A stretch of DNA of 64,000 bases, from NCBI RefSeq assembly GCF_002487355.1, contig NZ_NTMG01000085.1:62001-126000 (forward strand). The letters are read 5' to 3'. The translations under genes were made by a program, and so were the position numbers. Source of the DNA: Candidatus Methanoperedens sp. BLZ2. Its GTDB lineage: Archaea > Halobacteriota > Methanosarcinia > Methanosarcinales > Methanoperedenaceae. How positions within the stretch are numbered: the first letter of the stretch is position 1; every line of letters begins with the position of its first letter. This document shows positions 33,376 to 57,660 of this stretch, in pieces. The notes under the pieces are model-generated. The model was not told where the DNA came from. It searched no databases and worked only from the letters and a program-made list of their open reading frames with translations.

Positions 33376-34635
33376 TTAGCTCTTGCGTATCCTTACCGCA
33401 TTTGCATGAGCAAAAAGCCCTTCAGCTTCGGCAAGCCCAATAATTGTATCGTTCATTCCCTCAAGACCTTTCTTTTCAATGATCTGCACGCTTGATTTCG
33501 TTACGAAATGGTCAATATTCAAACCTGAGAACATCCGTGCATATCCTGCTGTTGGAAGGACATGGTTCGTGCCTGATGCATAATCACCAGCAGATACAGG
33601 CGCATAAGAACCGACAAAAATCGAACCTGCATGCCTGATCCTGCCAAGAATATCTTCCTCGGTCATTATTTCAAGATGCTCAGGCGCAAACTTATTTGAA
33701 AAATCAATGCATTCATCAAGTGTTCCAGTGAGTATGGCTGCATTCTCAAGCGAGGTCTTGATAATTTCTGCACGTGCCACATTTTTTATCTGGATCTCTA
33801 TCTCCTGCATTACTTGTTTTGCCAGGTTTTCTGATGGGGTTACAAGCACGCAAACAGCGTTCGGGTCATGCTCTGCCTGGGCTATCATATCAGAAGCTAT
33901 GAAATCAGCTCTTGCCGATCCATCTGCAATTATCAGCACTTCACTTGGGCCCGCAGGAAAATCAATAGCAGTTCCGCAGGCCATTTTGGCTGCTGTGACA
34001 TATACATTGCCAGGCCCAACTATTTTATCTACTTTTGGAATGGTCTTTGTCCCATAAGCCATAGCAGCTATTGCCTGTACGCCTCCTGCGCGAAAAACAC
34101 GGTCTGCGCCTGCGATATGTGCGGCTGCCAGTGTCAGTGGGTTTACTGTTCCATCCGGGTTCGGGGGAGTGCATACAATAACCTGCCTTACGCCTGCGAC
34201 TTTTGCAGGGATAACTGTCATAAGAGCAGTACTTGGATAAGATGCCCTTCCGCCAGGGACATAAGCGCCTACGGACCCAAGAGGTGAAATACGCTGTCCC
34301 AGCCTGATCCCGGGTGCAAATTCCTTTATCCAGTCCTTTGTGGCCTGGGCATCATGGAACGCACGAATGTTTGACGCTGCTTTTTTAAGATGTGTCAGGA
34401 GCTTTTTGTCAAGTGAAAAAACTGCTTCATGTATTTCCTTATGGGAAACTTCGATATCTTTTAAGGCTGCTTTATCAAATTGCATTGTATATTTTAATAG
34501 AGCAGTATCGCCATTCTCTTTTATATCGTTCAGAATGAGTGTTACAGAAGGCATTACTTCCTGTAACTCATCCTGGCGCTTTAGAAGGCTTTCAATTTCA
34601 ATATTTGTGAGCATACTAATGGAATTTAATAACAT
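33376..34635 (-). CDS. hisD: Histidinol dehydrogenase
   Basis: The protein oxidises L-histidinol to L-histidine, the last step of histidine synthesis. Typical segments are [60 protein letters not shown] and [13 protein letters not shown] with the catalytic Glu-His pair. At 419 residues it is full length. An internal ATG at 34614 ([11 protein letters not shown]) is an equally good start. No other his gene is adjacent. Confidence 0.95.
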
Positions 34636-34723
34636 TACATACTGATTTCAGGGTGTAGAGAGATAAATGTTTGTGTGAAGTCGTCAGGTAACAATACGTT
34701 CAATATGTACTGTGAGCAGCGAT

Positions 34724-34877
34724 AACTTTTTATATCATTATGCTCATTATGATATTCCTGTTATCTCCCTGTAATTGAAAAACGGGAAGTAATTGCGGGT
34801 TGATATTTATATTAATAATGTGGCACTACGTCACATTATCGCAGAATTATGAATAAAACAATGAGATGTGAGTAGTT
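34724..34877 (+). promoter_or_regulatory. Structured 5' leader, copy 1, with 8-codon upstream ORF
   Basis: A TATA-like gataactttttatat is followed by a stem cctgtaatt / aattgcggg (two G-U pairs), then a hairpin aatgtg...cacatt. A mini-ORF at 34849-34875 encodes MNKTMRCE. Its TAG ends two bases before the ATG of the next gene. The same layout occurs at 35275-35428. I infer a shared regulatory leader. Confidence 0.7.
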
Positions 34878-35030
34878 ATGATCGAAAAACAATATGTATG
34901 CCCTAATTGTAAACAGCCAATACCGTTAAGAAGCGCAGATTTCATTAAGGGAATTGCGATGGTTTCATGTGTGGACTGTGGCAGGGGTGCTTTTACTATT
35001 GAGGATAATCTTTTGGGGTTGGAAATTTAA
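34878..35030 (+). CDS. Tiny zinc-ribbon protein (50 residues)
   Basis: The protein MIEKQYVCPNCKQPIPLRSA continues with VSCVDCGRGAF and so has two CxxC knuckles of a single zinc ribbon. It directly follows leader copy 1 and its mini-ORF. Because it shares a leader with the PHA operon, it may be co-regulated with it. No family is recognised. Confidence 0.7.
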   Translation: MIEKQYVCPNCKQPIPLRSADFIKGIAMVSCVDCGRGAFTIEDNLLGLEI

Positions 35031-35031
35031 A

Positions 35032-35121
35032 ATGGATGAAGAAGAAACATATAAATATCAGGAAAATGACGATGAAGAAGACCTTCTGAGATTCCTTCGC
35101 GGCGGATTTGGGGCGAAATAA
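35032..35121 (+). CDS. Possible 29-residue acidic peptide
   Basis: The ATG lies one base after the stop of the zinc-ribbon gene. The peptide MDEEETYKYQENDDEEDLLR ends RFLRGGFGAK: an acidic stretch and a basic tail. Its tight spacing suggests co-translation, but the coding call rests only on position and composition. Confidence 0.45.
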   Translation: MDEEETYKYQENDDEEDLLRFLRGGFGAK

Positions 35122-35274
35122 ATTTCACGTTTATAAATAATTGATCGTTCTGGATCTAAATATTTGTATAGTGTTAATATAATACAGTATACTGGCCTGC
35201 TTTATAAAAAGACAGGCTATGCATTCATGTTAATTCAATTGAATCAATCTATTTTATAAGCATTAACAAACTGA

Positions 35275-35428
35275 GATAACTTTTTATATGATTACTATCA
35301 TAAGTATAATGCAGTTATCGACCTGTAATAAAAAAAACGGGATGATGTTACAGGTTTGAATTAAATTGCATCAGTGTGGCGGTCACAGATCGCGGAATTA
35401 TGAACAAAACAATGAGAAGTGAGTAGTT
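35275..35428 (+). promoter_or_regulatory. Structured 5' leader, copy 2, upstream of the PHA operon
   Basis: The TATA-like gataactttttatat repeats. The stem is here perfectly paired (cctgtaa / ttacagg), followed by tgtg...caca and cgcggaattatgaacaaaac. The mini-ORF at 35400-35426 encodes MNKTMRSE and ends two bases before the ATG at 35429. The last ~40 bases are nearly identical to copy 1. The structure suggests RNA-level or translational control of PHA synthesis. Confidence 0.72.
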
Positions 35429-36511
35429 ATGGTCAAGAAACATGATAATAGCCCAGAATTTGAAGTAAATAAAGATGCATATAAAATGTGGTCAGATACC
35501 TATGGCGATGTCTCAAAAATGTGGGACGAATCCCACTCAAAAATTTTAAAACCATGGGTTGAATTAATGGGAGAAATGTCTGATAAGACAAAAGAGATCT
35601 CCTTAAATTCGGCGCCGAAAAATTATAAGGAATTTTATGATGAGTGGATGAAAACATACGAGAATTCGTTTGGGAAATTTTATCCTGTTTCGATCCCTGC
35701 GCCCAAAGAAACACTTGAAAACTTCATAAAAATATCCGGTGAATCAAATAAACTTTACAGGTCATGGATAGAAGAATCAGAAGAAAATACGAAAAAGACC
35801 TCTGAACTACTTAAAAATGGGGCTGACCCTGCAAAATTCAAAGAGTGTTTTGAAATGTGGATGAAGTCCTATGACAAAATGTCGAATGATTTTATAGAAC
35901 AACCCGCAGTTAAATACCAGAAAGAGATATTTGTAAATTATACCGGCATACCCGATTTTTATTCGGAAACCCTGTTGAAAATGTCAACAATGTGGAGGGA
36001 TTCTTTTAATAAATTGTATAGTCCGTGGGTCGAATCCATGCAGAAGCTTTCCCGGAATATAGAAAAGATTTCAAAAGGCAATGCAAGCCCTGAGGCTTAT
36101 AAGGAATTTTTTGATATGTGGGCAAATACTTATAAAGAAAACTATAAAATGTTTGACCCGCGGTCTGCGATCTCATCTAAAGAAGCGTTCGAGAATTTCA
36201 TAGAGAGCAGCAATGTCAGCCTGAATCTATATAAATCATGGATTTCGGCCATGGAAGGAATGCATGAAAAATTCAAGGACCATTCTAAGATCACAAATGA
36301 CCCCGAAGCTTGCAAAGAATTTTTCAATCTATGGGTAAAGATGCATGAAAAGGCTATCGAAGATGTCTTTGATAGGATGCCCATGGTATCTCCTGTCAAA
36401 GAGATGATAGAACCTATCAGGGATGCATGTAAGCTCTATGCCAATGCGTCCATAAAAATGTCAAAAATGTGGATGGATTCGTATACACGCGCTGCACGAC
36501 CCAAGGTTTAA
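35429..36511 (+). CDS. PhaE-related protein with four internal repeats
   Basis: The 360-residue soluble helical protein contains four related segments near residues 67, 137, 226 and 297: YKEFYDEWMKTYENSFGKF, FKECFEMWMKSYDKMSNDF, YKEFFDMWANTYKENYKMF and CKEFFNLWVKMHEKAIEDVF. The same pattern (NKEIYNIWIETYSDTFKEF) occurs once in the downstream PhaE. It is the first gene of the PHA operon. It may act as a PHA synthase subunit or as a granule-coating phasin; the role is inferred. Confidence 0.7.
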   Translation: MVKKHDNSPEFEVNKDAYKMWSDTYGDVSKMWDESHSKILKPWVELMGEMSDKTKEISLNSAPKNYKEFYDEWMKTYENSFGKFYPVSIPAPKETLENFIKISGESNKLYRSWIEESEENTKKTSELLKNGADPAKFKECFEMWMKSYDKMSNDFIEQPAVKYQKEIFVNYTGIPDFYSETLLKMSTMWRDSFNKLYSPWVESMQKLSRNIEKISKGNASPEAYKEFFDMWANTYKENYKMFDPRSAISSKEAFENFIESSNVSLNLYKSWISAMEGMHEKFKDHSKITNDPEACKEFFNLWVKMHEKAIEDVFDRMPMVSPVKEMIEPIRDACKLYANASIKMSKMWMDSYTRAARPKV

Positions 36512-36513
36512 AC

Positions 36514-36987
36514 ATGAACATTGGCGAAATACCTGCTGTTGGCCCATCAAGAGAGAAAACAGAAAAAATGATGAAGTTTTTCCCTCTCTTTATGAATTTT
36601 TATAATGTGTGGATGGACTCTATTTCTGATTTTTCGAATATCTCCCTTGAAGCAATGAACAGGATGCATGACAAAACCGCAAATATAGGGTACGAGATCA
36701 GTCCAGAGAAAAATAAAGAAATATATAACATATGGATAGAGACCTACAGCGATACCTTTAAAGAATTCCTGGGAACAGGTCATTTTGCCCGGGATATGGG
36801 TAAAATCACCTCACTTTTGATCGACGCTCAAAAATACAATCGGGAAATGCTTGAGGAAAATTTACTAAAACCTATGAATCTACCCACAAGTACCGATATT
36901 GATGAAGTGAACAGGGAGCTGTATTCTCTTAAAAAAACAGTAAGAGAATTGACCCGGAAAATCAATGAATTATCACAGGAAAAATGA
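36514..36987 (+). CDS. phaE: PHA synthase subunit PhaE (class III)
   Basis: Starting at MNIGEIPAVGPSREKTEKMM (ATG 36514), the protein has the PhaE segment SLEAMNRMHDKTANIGYEIS and ends in a coiled coil (DEVNRELYSLKKTVRELTRK). PhaE activates PhaC in class III synthases. An upstream in-frame start at 36469 lies inside the previous gene and is less likely. It is followed by phaC. Confidence 0.82.
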   Translation: MNIGEIPAVGPSREKTEKMMKFFPLFMNFYNVWMDSISDFSNISLEAMNRMHDKTANIGYEISPEKNKEIYNIWIETYSDTFKEFLGTGHFARDMGKITSLLIDAQKYNREMLEENLLKPMNLPTSTDIDEVNRELYSLKKTVRELTRKINELSQEK

Positions 36988-36994
36988 TTATTTT

Positions 36995-38164
36995 ATGATT
37001 CAAACAATGAATGGACTTAATTTAATTGAAGAACCTTTTATAAAATTTACAAAAAGTTGTGAAGTAATTTCAGAGTTAACTGAAATTTCAGTGGGAACAA
37101 CCCCTCATGAGATAGTATATAGTGAAGATAAAATGAAACTTTTTCACTATAAACCAGCAGTGGAAAATCCCTGTCAGGTTCCTGTTCTTATGATATACGC
37201 TCTTGTAAACCGATATTATATCCTTGATCTTTCGCCTGATAAGAGCGTAATAAAGAACCTCCTGGATAAGGGCTTTGACGTTTATGCAATTGACTGGGGA
37301 TACCCCTCAGGGATGGACAAATATCTCACGATAGATGATTATGTGAATGGCTATCTGAATAATGCTGTGGATTATGTCAGGAGAGAATCGGGAGCAGATA
37401 AAATTTCCTTATTAGGCGTATGTGTGGGCGGAACTTTATCCGCAATGTATGCCTCACTTCACCCAGAAAAGGTAAAAAACCTGATAAGTTTTGTTGCACC
37501 TATCAACTTTGATACCGATAAATCCCTGCTCAATATCTGGGCAAAAGAAATGGACGTGGACAAAATAGTGGACTATTATGGTATAGTTCCCGGAGATTTC
37601 CTGAACATGGGATTCCTTCTTCTTGATCCTTTCAGGCTTATGATCGATAAATATGTGGGATTTTTAGAACGGATCGATGACAAGAAAACCGTAGAAAATT
37701 TTCTACGCATGGAAAAATGGATATTTGACAGCCCGGGCCAGGCAGGTGAAGCTTACAGGCAGTTCATGAAAGACTGTTACCAGAAAAACCTCCTGATTAA
37801 AAACAAAATGGAAATCGGAGGAAAGAGGATCAATTTGAAGAAAATTTCCATGCCCTTGCTTAATATTATGGCACAATTTGATCATCTTGTTCCAAATGAA
37901 TCAAGCCAGCCCTTGACAGAGGCTGTATCGAGTACTGATAAAGAATCTATGGTTTTCCCCACAGGTCATATCGGTATGTTCGTTGGCTCAAAATCCCAGA
38001 ATGAGGTTTGCCCGAAAATTGCACAATGGTTAAAACCAAGGTCTATTACCAGTAAAGATGAAACTCCCAAAAGTACAGATGCAGATAGAGATCAAAATAA
38101 AACCGATGTAAAGAAAAGCAAAAGTAAGAAAAGTAATCGCAAATCGAAGGAGATCAAGAAATGA
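36995..38164 (+). CDS. phaC: Class III polyhydroxyalkanoate synthase PhaC
   Basis: The lipase-like box LLGVCVGGTLSAMYASLHPE holds the catalytic cysteine. AQFDHLVPNESS holds the aspartate and PTGHIGMF the histidine. The N-terminal GFDVYAIDWGYPSGMDKYLT is typical of PhaC. With PhaE it polymerises hydroxyacyl-CoA into storage polyester. The C-terminus carries a lysine- and serine-rich tail ([18 protein letters not shown]), which is unusual. The stop overlaps the next ATG. Confidence 0.93.
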   Translation: MIQTMNGLNLIEEPFIKFTKSCEVISELTEISVGTTPHEIVYSEDKMKLFHYKPAVENPCQVPVLMIYALVNRYYILDLSPDKSVIKNLLDKGFDVYAIDWGYPSGMDKYLTIDDYVNGYLNNAVDYVRRESGADKISLLGVCVGGTLSAMYASLHPEKVKNLISFVAPINFDTDKSLLNIWAKEMDVDKIVDYYGIVPGDFLNMGFLLLDPFRLMIDKYVGFLERIDDKKTVENFLRMEKWIFDSPGQAGEAYRQFMKDCYQKNLLIKNKMEIGGKRINLKKISMPLLNIMAQFDHLVPNESSQPLTEAVSSTDKESMVFPTGHIGMFVGSKSQNEVCPKIAQWLKPRSITSKDETPKSTDADRDQNKTDVKKSKSKKSNRKSKEIKK

Positions 38165-38901
38165 GAGTTGAAAACAAGGTCGTAATAATAACAGGATCAG
38201 GAAGCGGTATTGGCCGTGAGACTGCAATATTGTTTGGAAAAGAAGGCGCTAAAGTCGTAGTGGCGGATGTGAATGAAAAAGCAGGCCAGGAAACAGCAGA
38301 ATTAATAAGGAATAACGGAAGTGATGCATTCTTTGCAAAGCTTGATGTATCCGACAGGGAACAGTCAAAAGAAGTTGTAAAGGATACACTGGAAAGATAT
38401 GGAAAGATCGATATCCTGATCAATAATGCAGGAATTATCCAGGATGCATTGATTTCTAAAATGACTGAAGACCAATGGGACAAAGTTATTACTATAGACC
38501 TGAAGGGGCCTTTTAACTGCATCCAGGCAGTTGTAGAAGCAATGACAAAACATGGAACTGGCGAGATCATCAACGTATCTTCAATTGTAGGATTGTACGG
38601 TAATATCGGCCAGTCAAATTATTCAGCAGCCAAAGCAGGGCTGATCGGATTGACAAAAACTCTTGCCAAGGAACTGGGAAGGAAAGGAATAAGGGTCAAT
38701 GCGGTTGCTCCGGGATTTATATATACTCCGATGACAGCAACCGTACCTGAAAAAATACTTGAGATGATGAAGGAAAAAACACCGGTAAAAAGGCTTGGCA
38801 GGCCTGATGATATCGCGTATGCACTGTTATATCTTGCTTCGGATGAAGCAAATTTCGTTAATGGCGCGGTACTTTCTGTTGATGGCGGACTCCTCCTGTA
38901 A
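38161..38901 (+). CDS. phaB: SDR reductase, acetoacetyl-CoA reductase PhaB/FabG-like (first copy)
   Basis: The cofactor loop is [52 protein letters not shown] and the catalytic Y-x3-K follow, with [11 protein letters not shown] downstream. At 246 residues it is a normal FabG/PhaB. In this operon it would reduce acetoacetyl-CoA to (R)-3-hydroxybutyryl-CoA for PhaC. Confidence 0.88.
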
Positions 38902-38915
38902 TCCGGGTGGCAACT

Positions 38916-40094
38916 ATGAAGAATGTAGTAATTGCTGCTGCGACCCGTACCGCAATAGGAAAATTCGGTGGAAGTCTTAAAGATTTTAATCCGGCACAAC
39001 TTGGTTCTGTGGTATTGAAGGAAGCATTAAAGCGGGGAAATATAGCAGGAACCGAAGTTAATGAAGTCATAATGGGAAATGTACTTTCTGCAGGGCATGG
39101 CCAGAATGTTGCACGCCAGGCAGCGATTAGCGCAGGTATCCCGGTCGAAGTATCCTCATTCAGCGTAAATAAAGTATGCGGCTCAGGCTTAAAATCAGTT
39201 GTCCTTGGCGCACAGGCTATAATGCTTGGTGATGCTGATGTTGTACTGGCAGGCGGCATGGAGTCAATGTCAAACACTCCTTATGCCTTAAGAAAGGCCC
39301 GCTGGGGAGCCAAAATGGGCAATGACGAACTTGTGGACCTGATGGTTCATGACGGTCTCTGGGATATTTTCAATAATTATCATATGGGCGTTACAGCAGA
39401 GAATGTAGCGGCAAAATTCGGAATTTCCAGGGATGAACAGGATGATCTGTCAGCAAAGAGCCAGAATAAAGCGGAGGCTGCCATAAAAGCCGGGAAATTC
39501 AGGGATGAGATCGTTTCTGTGCCAGTCCCTGTTCCAAAAGGCGAACCTGTTCTTTTTGATACTGATGAATTCCCGAGGTTCGGGACAACCAAAGAATCGC
39601 TTGCTAAACTGAAAAGCGCATTTAAAAAGGACGGTACTGTGACAGCAGGCAATTCTTCGGGGATTAATGATGGTGCGGCTGCTTTGCTTTTAATGTCCGA
39701 AGAGAAAGCAAAAGAAAAAGGAATTGTTCCCCTTGCAACCATCAAAAGCTATGGTTTATCAGGGGTGGCTCCCGATATTATGGGCACAGGCCCGATCAAT
39801 GCAAGTAAAAAAGCTTTGCAGCGGGCGAATCTTTCCGTGAGCCAGCTTGACCTTATTGAGGCAAATGAAGCATTTGCGGCGCAAAGCATTGCGGTCAACA
39901 GGGAACTTGGTCTTGATCCTGAAAAGGTTAACGTGAACGGCGGCGCCATAGCCCTGGGACATCCCATAGGGGCAAGCGGCGCAAGGATACTTGTTACACT
40001 TCTCCATGAATTAAAGAGAAGGAATGGCACATATGGCCTTGCAACCCTCTGTATAGGAGGAGGGCAGGGTATAGCCGTTGTTGTAAAGAGGTGA
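38916..40094 (+). CDS. phaA: Acetyl-CoA acetyltransferase (thiolase) PhaA
   Basis: The nucleophilic cysteine is in [20 protein letters not shown]. The C-terminal motifs [20 protein letters not shown] and [17 protein letters not shown] hold the histidine and second cysteine. It condenses two acetyl-CoA into acetoacetyl-CoA, the first PHA step. The ATG at 38916 has a gggtgg ribosome binding site; a GTG at 38907 is the alternative. Confidence 0.94.
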
Positions 40095-40098
40095 AATT

Positions 40099-40956
40099 AT
40101 GGGTTGCAGGAAGAAAGGCAGATTGGACGGTAAGGTTGCCCTTGTTACCGGAGGCTCAAGAGGTATCGGAAAAGCTATCTCTTTACGCCTCGCGGAAGAA
40201 GGAGCAGACGTGGTAATTAATTACCAGAATACGAAAGAGCATGCTGAGACGGTTTCAAAGCTCATTGACATGATGGGCATGGCAGGCAAGCTTGAAAAAA
40301 TTGCCTCACAGATACACAAGATGGATAATAAAGAACATGCAAAAGAGTTCTCAAGACAACTGGATGCCATTGAAAAGCACTCTTATATATGCCAGGCAAA
40401 TGTCAGTAATTTTGAGCAGGTAAAAAAGATGCAGGAAGAGGTCATAAAACAATTCGGGAAACTGGACATCCTGATCAATAATGCCGGAATAGTAAGGGAT
40501 AAATCTTTTGTAAAAATGACTTCTGACATGTGGGATGATGTTATGCATGTGAATCTGGATGGATCTTTCTATTGCACCAAGGCTTTCATAGAAGGAATGC
40601 TTGAGAGAAAGTATGGCAGGGTTATAAATATTTCTTCAGTCGTCGGAAGAATGGGCAATTTCGGGCAGGCAAATTATACTGCATCAAAAGCAGGAATGAT
40701 TGGCCTCACAAAGGCGCTTGCAAAGGAATTTGCAGGGAAGGGGGTCACCGTGAATGCAATTGCACCCGGATTTATTGAAACCGATATGGTAAAAGGTGTC
40801 CCTGGTGATGTAATGGATAAGATTCTCGCAAAAATTCCTCTCGGCAGGCTTGGTAAAGCTTCCGAAGTCGCAGGAACCGTTGCTTTTCTTGCATCTCAGG
40901 AAGGGGATTATATCACAGGACAGGTTATTGACATAAATGGAGGACTCTATATCTGA
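40099..40956 (+). CDS. Second PhaB/FabG-like SDR reductase with a ~35-residue insertion
   Basis: The SDR core is intact: ALVTGGSRGIGKAISLRLAE, INNAGIVRDKSF, NISSVVGRMGNFGQANYTAS and APGFIETDMVKG. Compared with the first copy it has an extra helical, charged segment (about residues 50-85, including KLEKIASQIHKMDNKEHAKE) between the NYQN strand and the ICQANVSN strand. It ends the PHA operon. It may differ in chain-length or cofactor use. Confidence 0.85.
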   Translation: MGCRKKGRLDGKVALVTGGSRGIGKAISLRLAEEGADVVINYQNTKEHAETVSKLIDMMGMAGKLEKIASQIHKMDNKEHAKEFSRQLDAIEKHSYICQANVSNFEQVKKMQEEVIKQFGKLDILINNAGIVRDKSFVKMTSDMWDDVMHVNLDGSFYCTKAFIEGMLERKYGRVINISSVVGRMGNFGQANYTASKAGMIGLTKALAKEFAGKGVTVNAIAPGFIETDMVKGVPGDVMDKILAKIPLGRLGKASEVAGTVAFLASQEGDYITGQVIDINGGLYI

Positions 40957-57623: not shown

Positions 57624-57660
57624 ATTCGAGAGCAACATCCACTAAAATAAGGATTGAAAC
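57624..57660 (+). CRISPR. Solitary CRISPR repeat (37 nt, Methanosarcina type)
   Basis: The 37-nt sequence starts attcgagagcaacatccact and ends taaggattgaaac. The attgaaac end and overall pattern match CRISPR repeats known from Methanosarcina. No second repeat or spacer is seen nearby and no cas gene is in the window. It stops four bases before the ATG of the next gene. Confidence 0.6.

Follow-up and report, generated by a model that had tools for sequence, protein, structure and literature searches.

Two neighbouring transcription units in a 64,000-nucleotide stretch of the Candidatus Methanoperedens sp. BLZ2 genome (the window), one for a 50-amino-acid zinc-ribbon protein (ZnR) and the other a class III PHA operon, have in common an untranslated leader of about 120 bases. 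The question that this locus raises is whether the leader is a regulatory device and, if it is, whether it acts as RNA, as a leader peptide or merely as part of a promoter. Methanoperedens, an organism that takes methane out of freshwater and soils, stores carbon and electrons as PHA, and cis-regulatory RNAs are few in archaea. In the open literature searched we found nothing on PHA control in Methanoperedens, and a literature search for riboswitches or leaders in Methanoperedens returned nothing either. A leader that PHA genes have in common with a gene for a small zinc protein offers a concrete, mutable handle on PHA control. We find that the 5' leader is real, restricted to one lineage, reused and constrained at the RNA level, and its sequence suggests that it probably tunes translation of the PHA and zinc-ribbon messages.

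Two copies of one promoter and leader

Contig C5, one of 85 in a 3.7-Mb genome (G000), contains the window. Proteins encoded in the window share 94-98% identity with their counterparts in 'uncultured archaeon LFW-24' (G024), and Ca. Methanoperedens MnB_21 is a more distant named relative. To the left of leader 1 is hisD, which points away leftward. Copy 1 of the promoter and leader (34721-34880) stands upstream of ZnR and copy 2 (35275-35431) upstream of the PHA operon; the two are 74% identical over 167 bases (E=2.6e-22 in the 3.7-Mb genome), a likeness far beyond chance. The features of the locus are as follows.

34721..34735, + strand: copy 1 BRE/TATA box GATAACTTTTTATAT, with the 14-mer ATAACTTTTTATAT at 34722-34735
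34736..34760, + strand: copy 1 putative operator, AT-rich repeats ATCAT..TCATTATGAT between the TATA box and the predicted transcription start
34750..34814, + strand: copy 1 possible outer helix P1 around P2, 34750-34755 with 34809-34814, 6 pairs; the same in G005
34768..34799, + strand: copy 1 hairpin P2, CCUGUAAUU/AAUUGCGGG with loop GAAAAACGGGAAGU, 9/9 pairs; folding z=-1.79, p=0.056
34817..34837, + strand: copy 1 hairpin P3, AAUGUGGC/GUCACAUU, 8 pairs; z=-5.5, p<0.001 against shuffles
34844..34880, + strand: copy 1 conserved ribosome-binding block with 3' end GUGAG-UAGUU-AUG, defined by sequence constraint
34849..34875, + strand: copy 1 mini-ORF, MNKTMRCE and stop; ORF not conserved
34878..35030, + strand: ZnR, 50-aa zinc-ribbon gene, CPNC...SCVDC, two Cys pairs; zinc ribbons are the top Pfam hits, under the cut-off
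35032..35121, + strand: 29-aa acidic ORF 3' of ZnR, 93-97% identity in G005 and G024
35275..35289, + strand: copy 2 BRE/TATA box GATAACTTTTTATAT, with the 14-mer ATAACTTTTTATAT at 35276-35289
35290..35314, + strand: copy 2 putative operator repeats ATCATAAGTATAATGCAG at the predicted transcription start; ATCATAAGTATGATGCAG in G005, ATCATAATTATGATGCAG in G012/G004
35309..35371, + strand: copy 2 outer helix P1, AUGCAGUU (35309-35316) with AAUUGCAU (35364-35371), 8 pairs
35322..35354, + strand: copy 2 hairpin P2, CCUGUAA/UUACAGG with an A-rich CGGGA loop, 7-8 pairs; z=-2.84, p=0.012
35375..35387, + strand: copy 2 short hairpin P3, UGUGG/UCACA, 5 pairs; unstable on its own
35395..35431, + strand: copy 2 conserved ribosome-binding block, defined by sequence constraint
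35400..35426, + strand: copy 2 mini-ORF, MNKTMRSE and stop; ORF not conserved
35429..36511, + strand: phaE-like subunit 1 (PF09712, E=2.8e-9, 37 bits, cut-off 25.7)
36514..36987, + strand: phaE-like subunit 2 (PF09712, E=2.5e-17, 64 bits, cut-off 25.7)
36995..38164, + strand: phaC, class III PHA synthase (TIGR01836, E=2.1e-145, 484 bits, cut-off 365)
38161..40956, + strand: SDR reductase, thiolase and SDR acetoacetyl-CoA reductase-like genes, in the same operon as phaC

The layout agrees with the original prediction. The same TATA-like start heads both leaders, and its 14-mer occurs exactly twice in the window, where 0.01 occurrences are expected by chance. The stem described as CCTGTAATT/AATTGCGGG lies at 34768-34776/34791-34799 and its partner CCTGTAA/TTACAGG at 35322-35328/35348-35354, TGTG...CACA hairpins are present at 34817-34837 and 35375-35387, and the two mini-ORFs end two bases 5' of the ATG codons at 34878 and 35429. 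The genes downstream are a 50-aa zinc ribbon and phaE-phaE-phaC-SDR-thiolase-SDR.

The assignment to class III rests on a PhaC that scores over the TIGR01836 cut-off and a PhaE partner over that of PF09712. As in other class III operons, phaE and phaC are accompanied by a thiolase and reductases; unlike them, this operon has two phaE-like genes and a leader module in common with a zinc-ribbon gene. The consecutive phaE-like pair occupies 35429-36987, and the first member carries internal WxxxY/F-rich repeats (direct repeats D1, D4, D7). ZnR, with two CxxC knuckles in 50 residues, resembles the small zinc-ribbon proteins Zn_ribbon_3, TackOD1 zinc ribbon, Elf1 and ECs_2282 CxxC, but every one of these matches falls under its curated cut-off, and ZnR represents a Methanoperedens family with many paralogues. 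Homologues are found in 23 of 34 genomes of the family.

Distribution, constraint and likely structure of the leader

DNA and covariance-model searches of all 31 genomes of the genus recovered, with the copies in the window, 11 leader copies in seven Methanoperedens species, and a pattern and model search over the 238 genomes of the class gave no copy in the 207 outside the genus. The covariance-model search of Methanoperedens genomes had been suggested originally, and copies exist in six other species. The TATA region, with CTTTTTATRT, is kept in 8 of 11 leader copies. Among the 31 genomes, full copies are also present in G005 (two, at separate loci), G024 (one), G012, G004 and G030 (two, in tandem). 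The tandem pair of G024 consists of one full leader and one deleted leader: at L069:9260-9340 (G024:C45) the ZnR leader is cleanly deleted for P2 and P3, so that the promoter is joined to the ribosome-binding block, and the gene is kept. The LFW-24 ZnR leader is in this sense a natural mutant. G023 has a diverged copy fused to a ZnR gene, and in G006 and G028 the orthologous PHA operon lies behind a short leader that does not contain the element.

The genes that follow the leaders are phaE (five copies), ZnR (four) and small acidic ORFs (two), and one leader-borne acidic ORF ends in DYVWWLI and is PhaE-like over its first dozen residues. Since leaders precede such different genes, one of them PhaE-like at its start, the copied unit would comprise promoter, leader and first codons; the likeness of the DYVWWLI ORF to PhaE1 suggests that leader and N-terminal codons may move together. 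A match of model R1 at G017:C60 was not counted as a copy, as it covers the last 40 bases only and has an ORF upstream. Small acidic ORFs ending in DYVWWLI at L111 (G017:C60) and L070:4905-5069 (G030:C58) have the first dozen residues and the ribosome-binding block as in PhaE1.

Between this genome and G012/G004, fourfold degenerate sites are 56% identical in phaE1 and 53% identical in phaC. Over the same comparison, 35 of the 37 bases of the ribosome-binding block (G000_pha) and 10 of the 12 in the P2 hairpin loop AAAAACGGGA are kept, and the P2 arms are identical at 4/8 and 4/8 positions. Loop and ribosome-binding block are constrained above the neutral rate. A constant loop carried on arms that drift and can still pair favours an RNA hairpin over a DNA operator at P2, and the pattern suggests a cis element that acts at the RNA level, close to where translation starts.

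P2 can be drawn in 9/9 copies checked, with P1 around it in most. Copies other than copy 1 and that of G005 have a P1 of different sequence at the equivalent place, and the last pair of P1 in copy 2, U-A, is A-U in G012/G004. P3 forms with at most one mismatch among the copies checked, except in the upstream copy of G030, where it is replaced by UUUAAUCCC/GGGAUUAAA; that copy has a perfect P2 with different inner pairs, CCUGCUUU/AGAGCAGG standing in place of CCUGUAA/UUACAGG. On the column alignment 88% of cells are paired, compared with 25-46% for slid versions. The original prediction had made further copies with paired changes its test, and the outcome is divided: the copies exist, but the column alignment holds no strict double (compensatory) changes, pairing persisting through G-U pairs and one-sided changes. 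The covariation score of this alignment was matched by shuffles in 417 of 500 cases, and re-paired arms in G030_2, G012 and G004 are seen with hand alignment only. Single-sequence folding of P2 against shuffles gave p=0.003 for G030_2, 0.012 for the PHA copy of the window and about 0.06 in several copies; in G012, G004 and G030_x the P2 segment folded no better than shuffles, and P3 folding was strong in ZnR copies only. The thermodynamic z-scores are modest. Because pairing is in excess yet strict double changes are absent and folding p-values are mixed, we regard the P2/P3 structure as likely rather than proven.

How the leader may act

We favour a model, with a probability of about 0.5, in which promoter, structured leader and first codons constitute one module that controls translation initiation or message stability. 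According to this model, the module would have been copied between the PHA synthase operon and genes for small zinc-ribbon or acidic proteins within one Methanoperedens lineage. Transcription would start about 25 bases 3' of the TATA box, a spacing that supports the leader as a predicted transcribed 5' UTR, and the RNA would fold into P2, with its constant AAAAACGGGA loop, and P3 (TGTGRC/GTCACA), followed by the 37-base ribosome-binding block. That this block is a ribosome-binding site is indicated by the second copy of G030 (G030_2), which has GAGGUGAG in place of the GAGAWGUGAG of the others. The 3' arm of P3 (GUCAC) has two possible partners, the 5' arm of the same hairpin and the Shine-Dalgarno-like GUGAG, and a putative factor that recognises the P2 loop or stabilises P3 would switch the start site between open and closed. 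In all nine copies with GUCAC, the UCAC of this arm is complementary to GUGA of the ribosome-binding site over 4-7 consecutive pairs, and therefore P3 and sequestration of the site are alternatives. In the predicted ensemble most ribosome-binding sites are largely paired, with partners that differ among copies.

The proposal that PHA and the zinc protein are controlled together is plausible for the window, for LFW-24 with its tandem copies and for G005 with copies at separate loci, but the ZnR copy of LFW-24 has lost both hairpins and the PHA operons of G006 and G028 have no element. Co-regulation of ZnR and PHA is something we infer. A bolder version of the model, which we consider unlikely, would make the leader a new archaeal translational-control RNA. 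A factor, perhaps a member of the ZnR family, would read its AAAAACGGGA loop and P3/Shine-Dalgarno switch, with PHA and ZnR in one post-transcriptional regulon and the ZnR family elsewhere under a programmed +1 frameshift.

A possible, if less favoured, explanation is that the promoter is the shared part that matters: a transcription factor would bind the ATCATNNNNATGAT repeats between TATA box and start, the leader would be passive, and ZnR and PHA would be co-regulated transcriptionally. The 25 bp that follow the TATA box retain an ATCAT..ATGAT pattern in most leader copies, as inverted or direct repeats at the equivalent place. In G012/G004 this interval holds a perfect 14-bp palindrome, ATCATAATTATGAT, between TATA box and predicted start, and ATAAGTAT persists in the phaE promoters of G006/G028, which have no leader. 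However, a promoter alone leaves unexplained why the loop and the 37-base ribosome-binding block are frozen alongside drifting arms, and the repeats differ in spacing and type among copies.

We consider it unlikely that the copies reflect nothing more than recent duplication of a promoter, leader and ribosome-binding site, in which the signals would be ordinary expression signals and the conserved block simply a good ribosome-binding site. Such a view would accommodate the G024 ZnR gene, still there after loss of both hairpins, the PHA operons of G006 and G028 that do without the leader, and the modest folding significance. It fits poorly with copies that are retained in several species separated by neutral distances, with a 10-base loop held constant well away from the ribosome-binding site and with the reuse of the module ahead of different genes.

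Whether the leader belongs to a larger class was approached through known families and wider motifs. It is comparable to riboswitches and other cis-regulatory leaders in Rfam as a predicted structured 5' UTR with a conserved loop, before a ribosome-binding site and metabolic genes; it differs in that it has no Rfam match, is confined to one genus and shows no strict double changes on the column alignment. Rfam 15 at gathering and relaxed thresholds gave no match in the leaders, the best relaxed score being 19.6 bits where 100 are required. Elsewhere in the window, positions 57624-57660 match the Rfam CRISPR-DR7 direct repeat at 50.5 bits.

At L102/L197 (G000:C48:43022-43098) and the orthologues L198-L203, a lipoprotein-gene leader contains a hairpin whose core, GTTAT..GTGATRAAAAACGGGAT, is nearly that of the PHA leaders. 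It is quite doubtful that the two form a wider RNA class with a common GUGA..RAAAAACGGGA..UCRC hairpin. The lipoprotein leaders (G000:C48 and orthologues) do have GTTATYNACGTGATRAAAAACGGGAT, in sense 5' UTRs of six genomes, but the orthologues count as one case, and G011 and G026 have lost the loop. Moreover, they were found by model R1, and under model R3, built without them, their best match (E=2.5e-4) does worse than a chance hit within a coding gene (E=1e-4), so that they were rejected as family members and are kept as a lead only. The wider motif GTTATN(8-18)AAAACGGGA occurs over the class at background level except in the lipoprotein orthologues, the remaining R2 matches lie inside genes, and four pattern matches in viral contigs are coding-sequence coincidences; those contigs yielded no relatives of PhaE or ZnR.

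The 8-codon ORF was the other half of the original prediction, which allowed for either a cis-acting RNA or a leader-peptide device. The RNA half is upheld by the copies in six other species, the constraint on loop and ribosome-binding block and the pairable arms; the peptide half is not, since only 6 of the 11 copies keep the ORF intact. CAG replaces the stop TAG in G005_pha and G024_pha, where the frame continues past the phaE start; a 2-base deletion destroys the frame in G030_x, and in G030_2 and G023 the ORF is absent. Where it is intact or nearly so, changes are mostly non-synonymous (C/S, K/R, M/I, T/I). The nucleotides of this region are constrained and the peptide is not; the mini-ORF is a local rather than a conserved feature and is probably not the device. 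As in trp/his-type attenuators, a short ORF precedes structural genes, but here it is not conserved and has neither a run of regulatory codons nor a terminator: a scan of the + strand at 34600-35600 with a bacterial-type consensus found no terminator-like hairpin. Attenuation or uORF control by translation or stalling on this ORF is thus very improbable, even though both copies in the window place TAG two bases 5' of the next ATG.

A candidate +1 frameshift in ZnR paralogues

A separate observation concerns the paralogues of ZnR (loci L242-L262, among them L246 and, in this genome, L244 at G000:C21). The 21-mer AGAAGGGRTTTACTTTGYCCC, allowing two mismatches or fewer, is present in 19 of 31 Methanoperedens genomes and 0 of 207 others of the class, and at those loci that were examined a ZnR homologue follows it. 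An ATG, mostly after GGTGAT or GTGAT, opens frame 0 at 19 of 21 places, and this frame reads M-T-x-Q-E-[KN]-RR[GD]LLCPR and then stops. This ORF of 6-18 codons is overlapped in the +1 frame by a conserved, start-less ORF with the motif [KIT]EG[VI]YF[AV]P; at the same 19 places the +1 frame contains no ATG, GTG or TTG from the preceding stop to the conserved EG[VI]YF[AV]P. The +1 frame either ends in [YNFTL]VWWLI, overlapping the ZnR start, or is fused to ZnR. One copy, L261, has an in-frame ATG, and another, L256, has ACG in place of ATG.

In this genome (C21, L244) and in G005 (C36) the +1 frame is fused directly to ZnR, which thus lacks a separate start. The fusion is also present in G024 (C97), although there the frame leaves ZnR midway. 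L262 (G030) has TGA instead of AGA at the junction, so that the shift would occur no later than this codon. Sequencing error is excluded, because the arrangement recurs at orthologous loci of some 18 assemblies. The simplest reading of these sequences is a candidate programmed +1 frameshift at AAN-(A/T)GA-AGG in ZnR paralogues of about 18 Methanoperedens genomes, including this one, with non-AUG initiation as the alternative. The ZnR of the window itself has a normal start and no frameshift.

This side finding is possibly stronger than that of the leader. For archaeal cellular genes, passages of a 2021 review name a single -1 frameshift case and, in those passages, no +1 case (PMC8211752). If shown, the event in the ZnR paralogues would amount to +1 frameshifting in a cellular gene of an archaeon.
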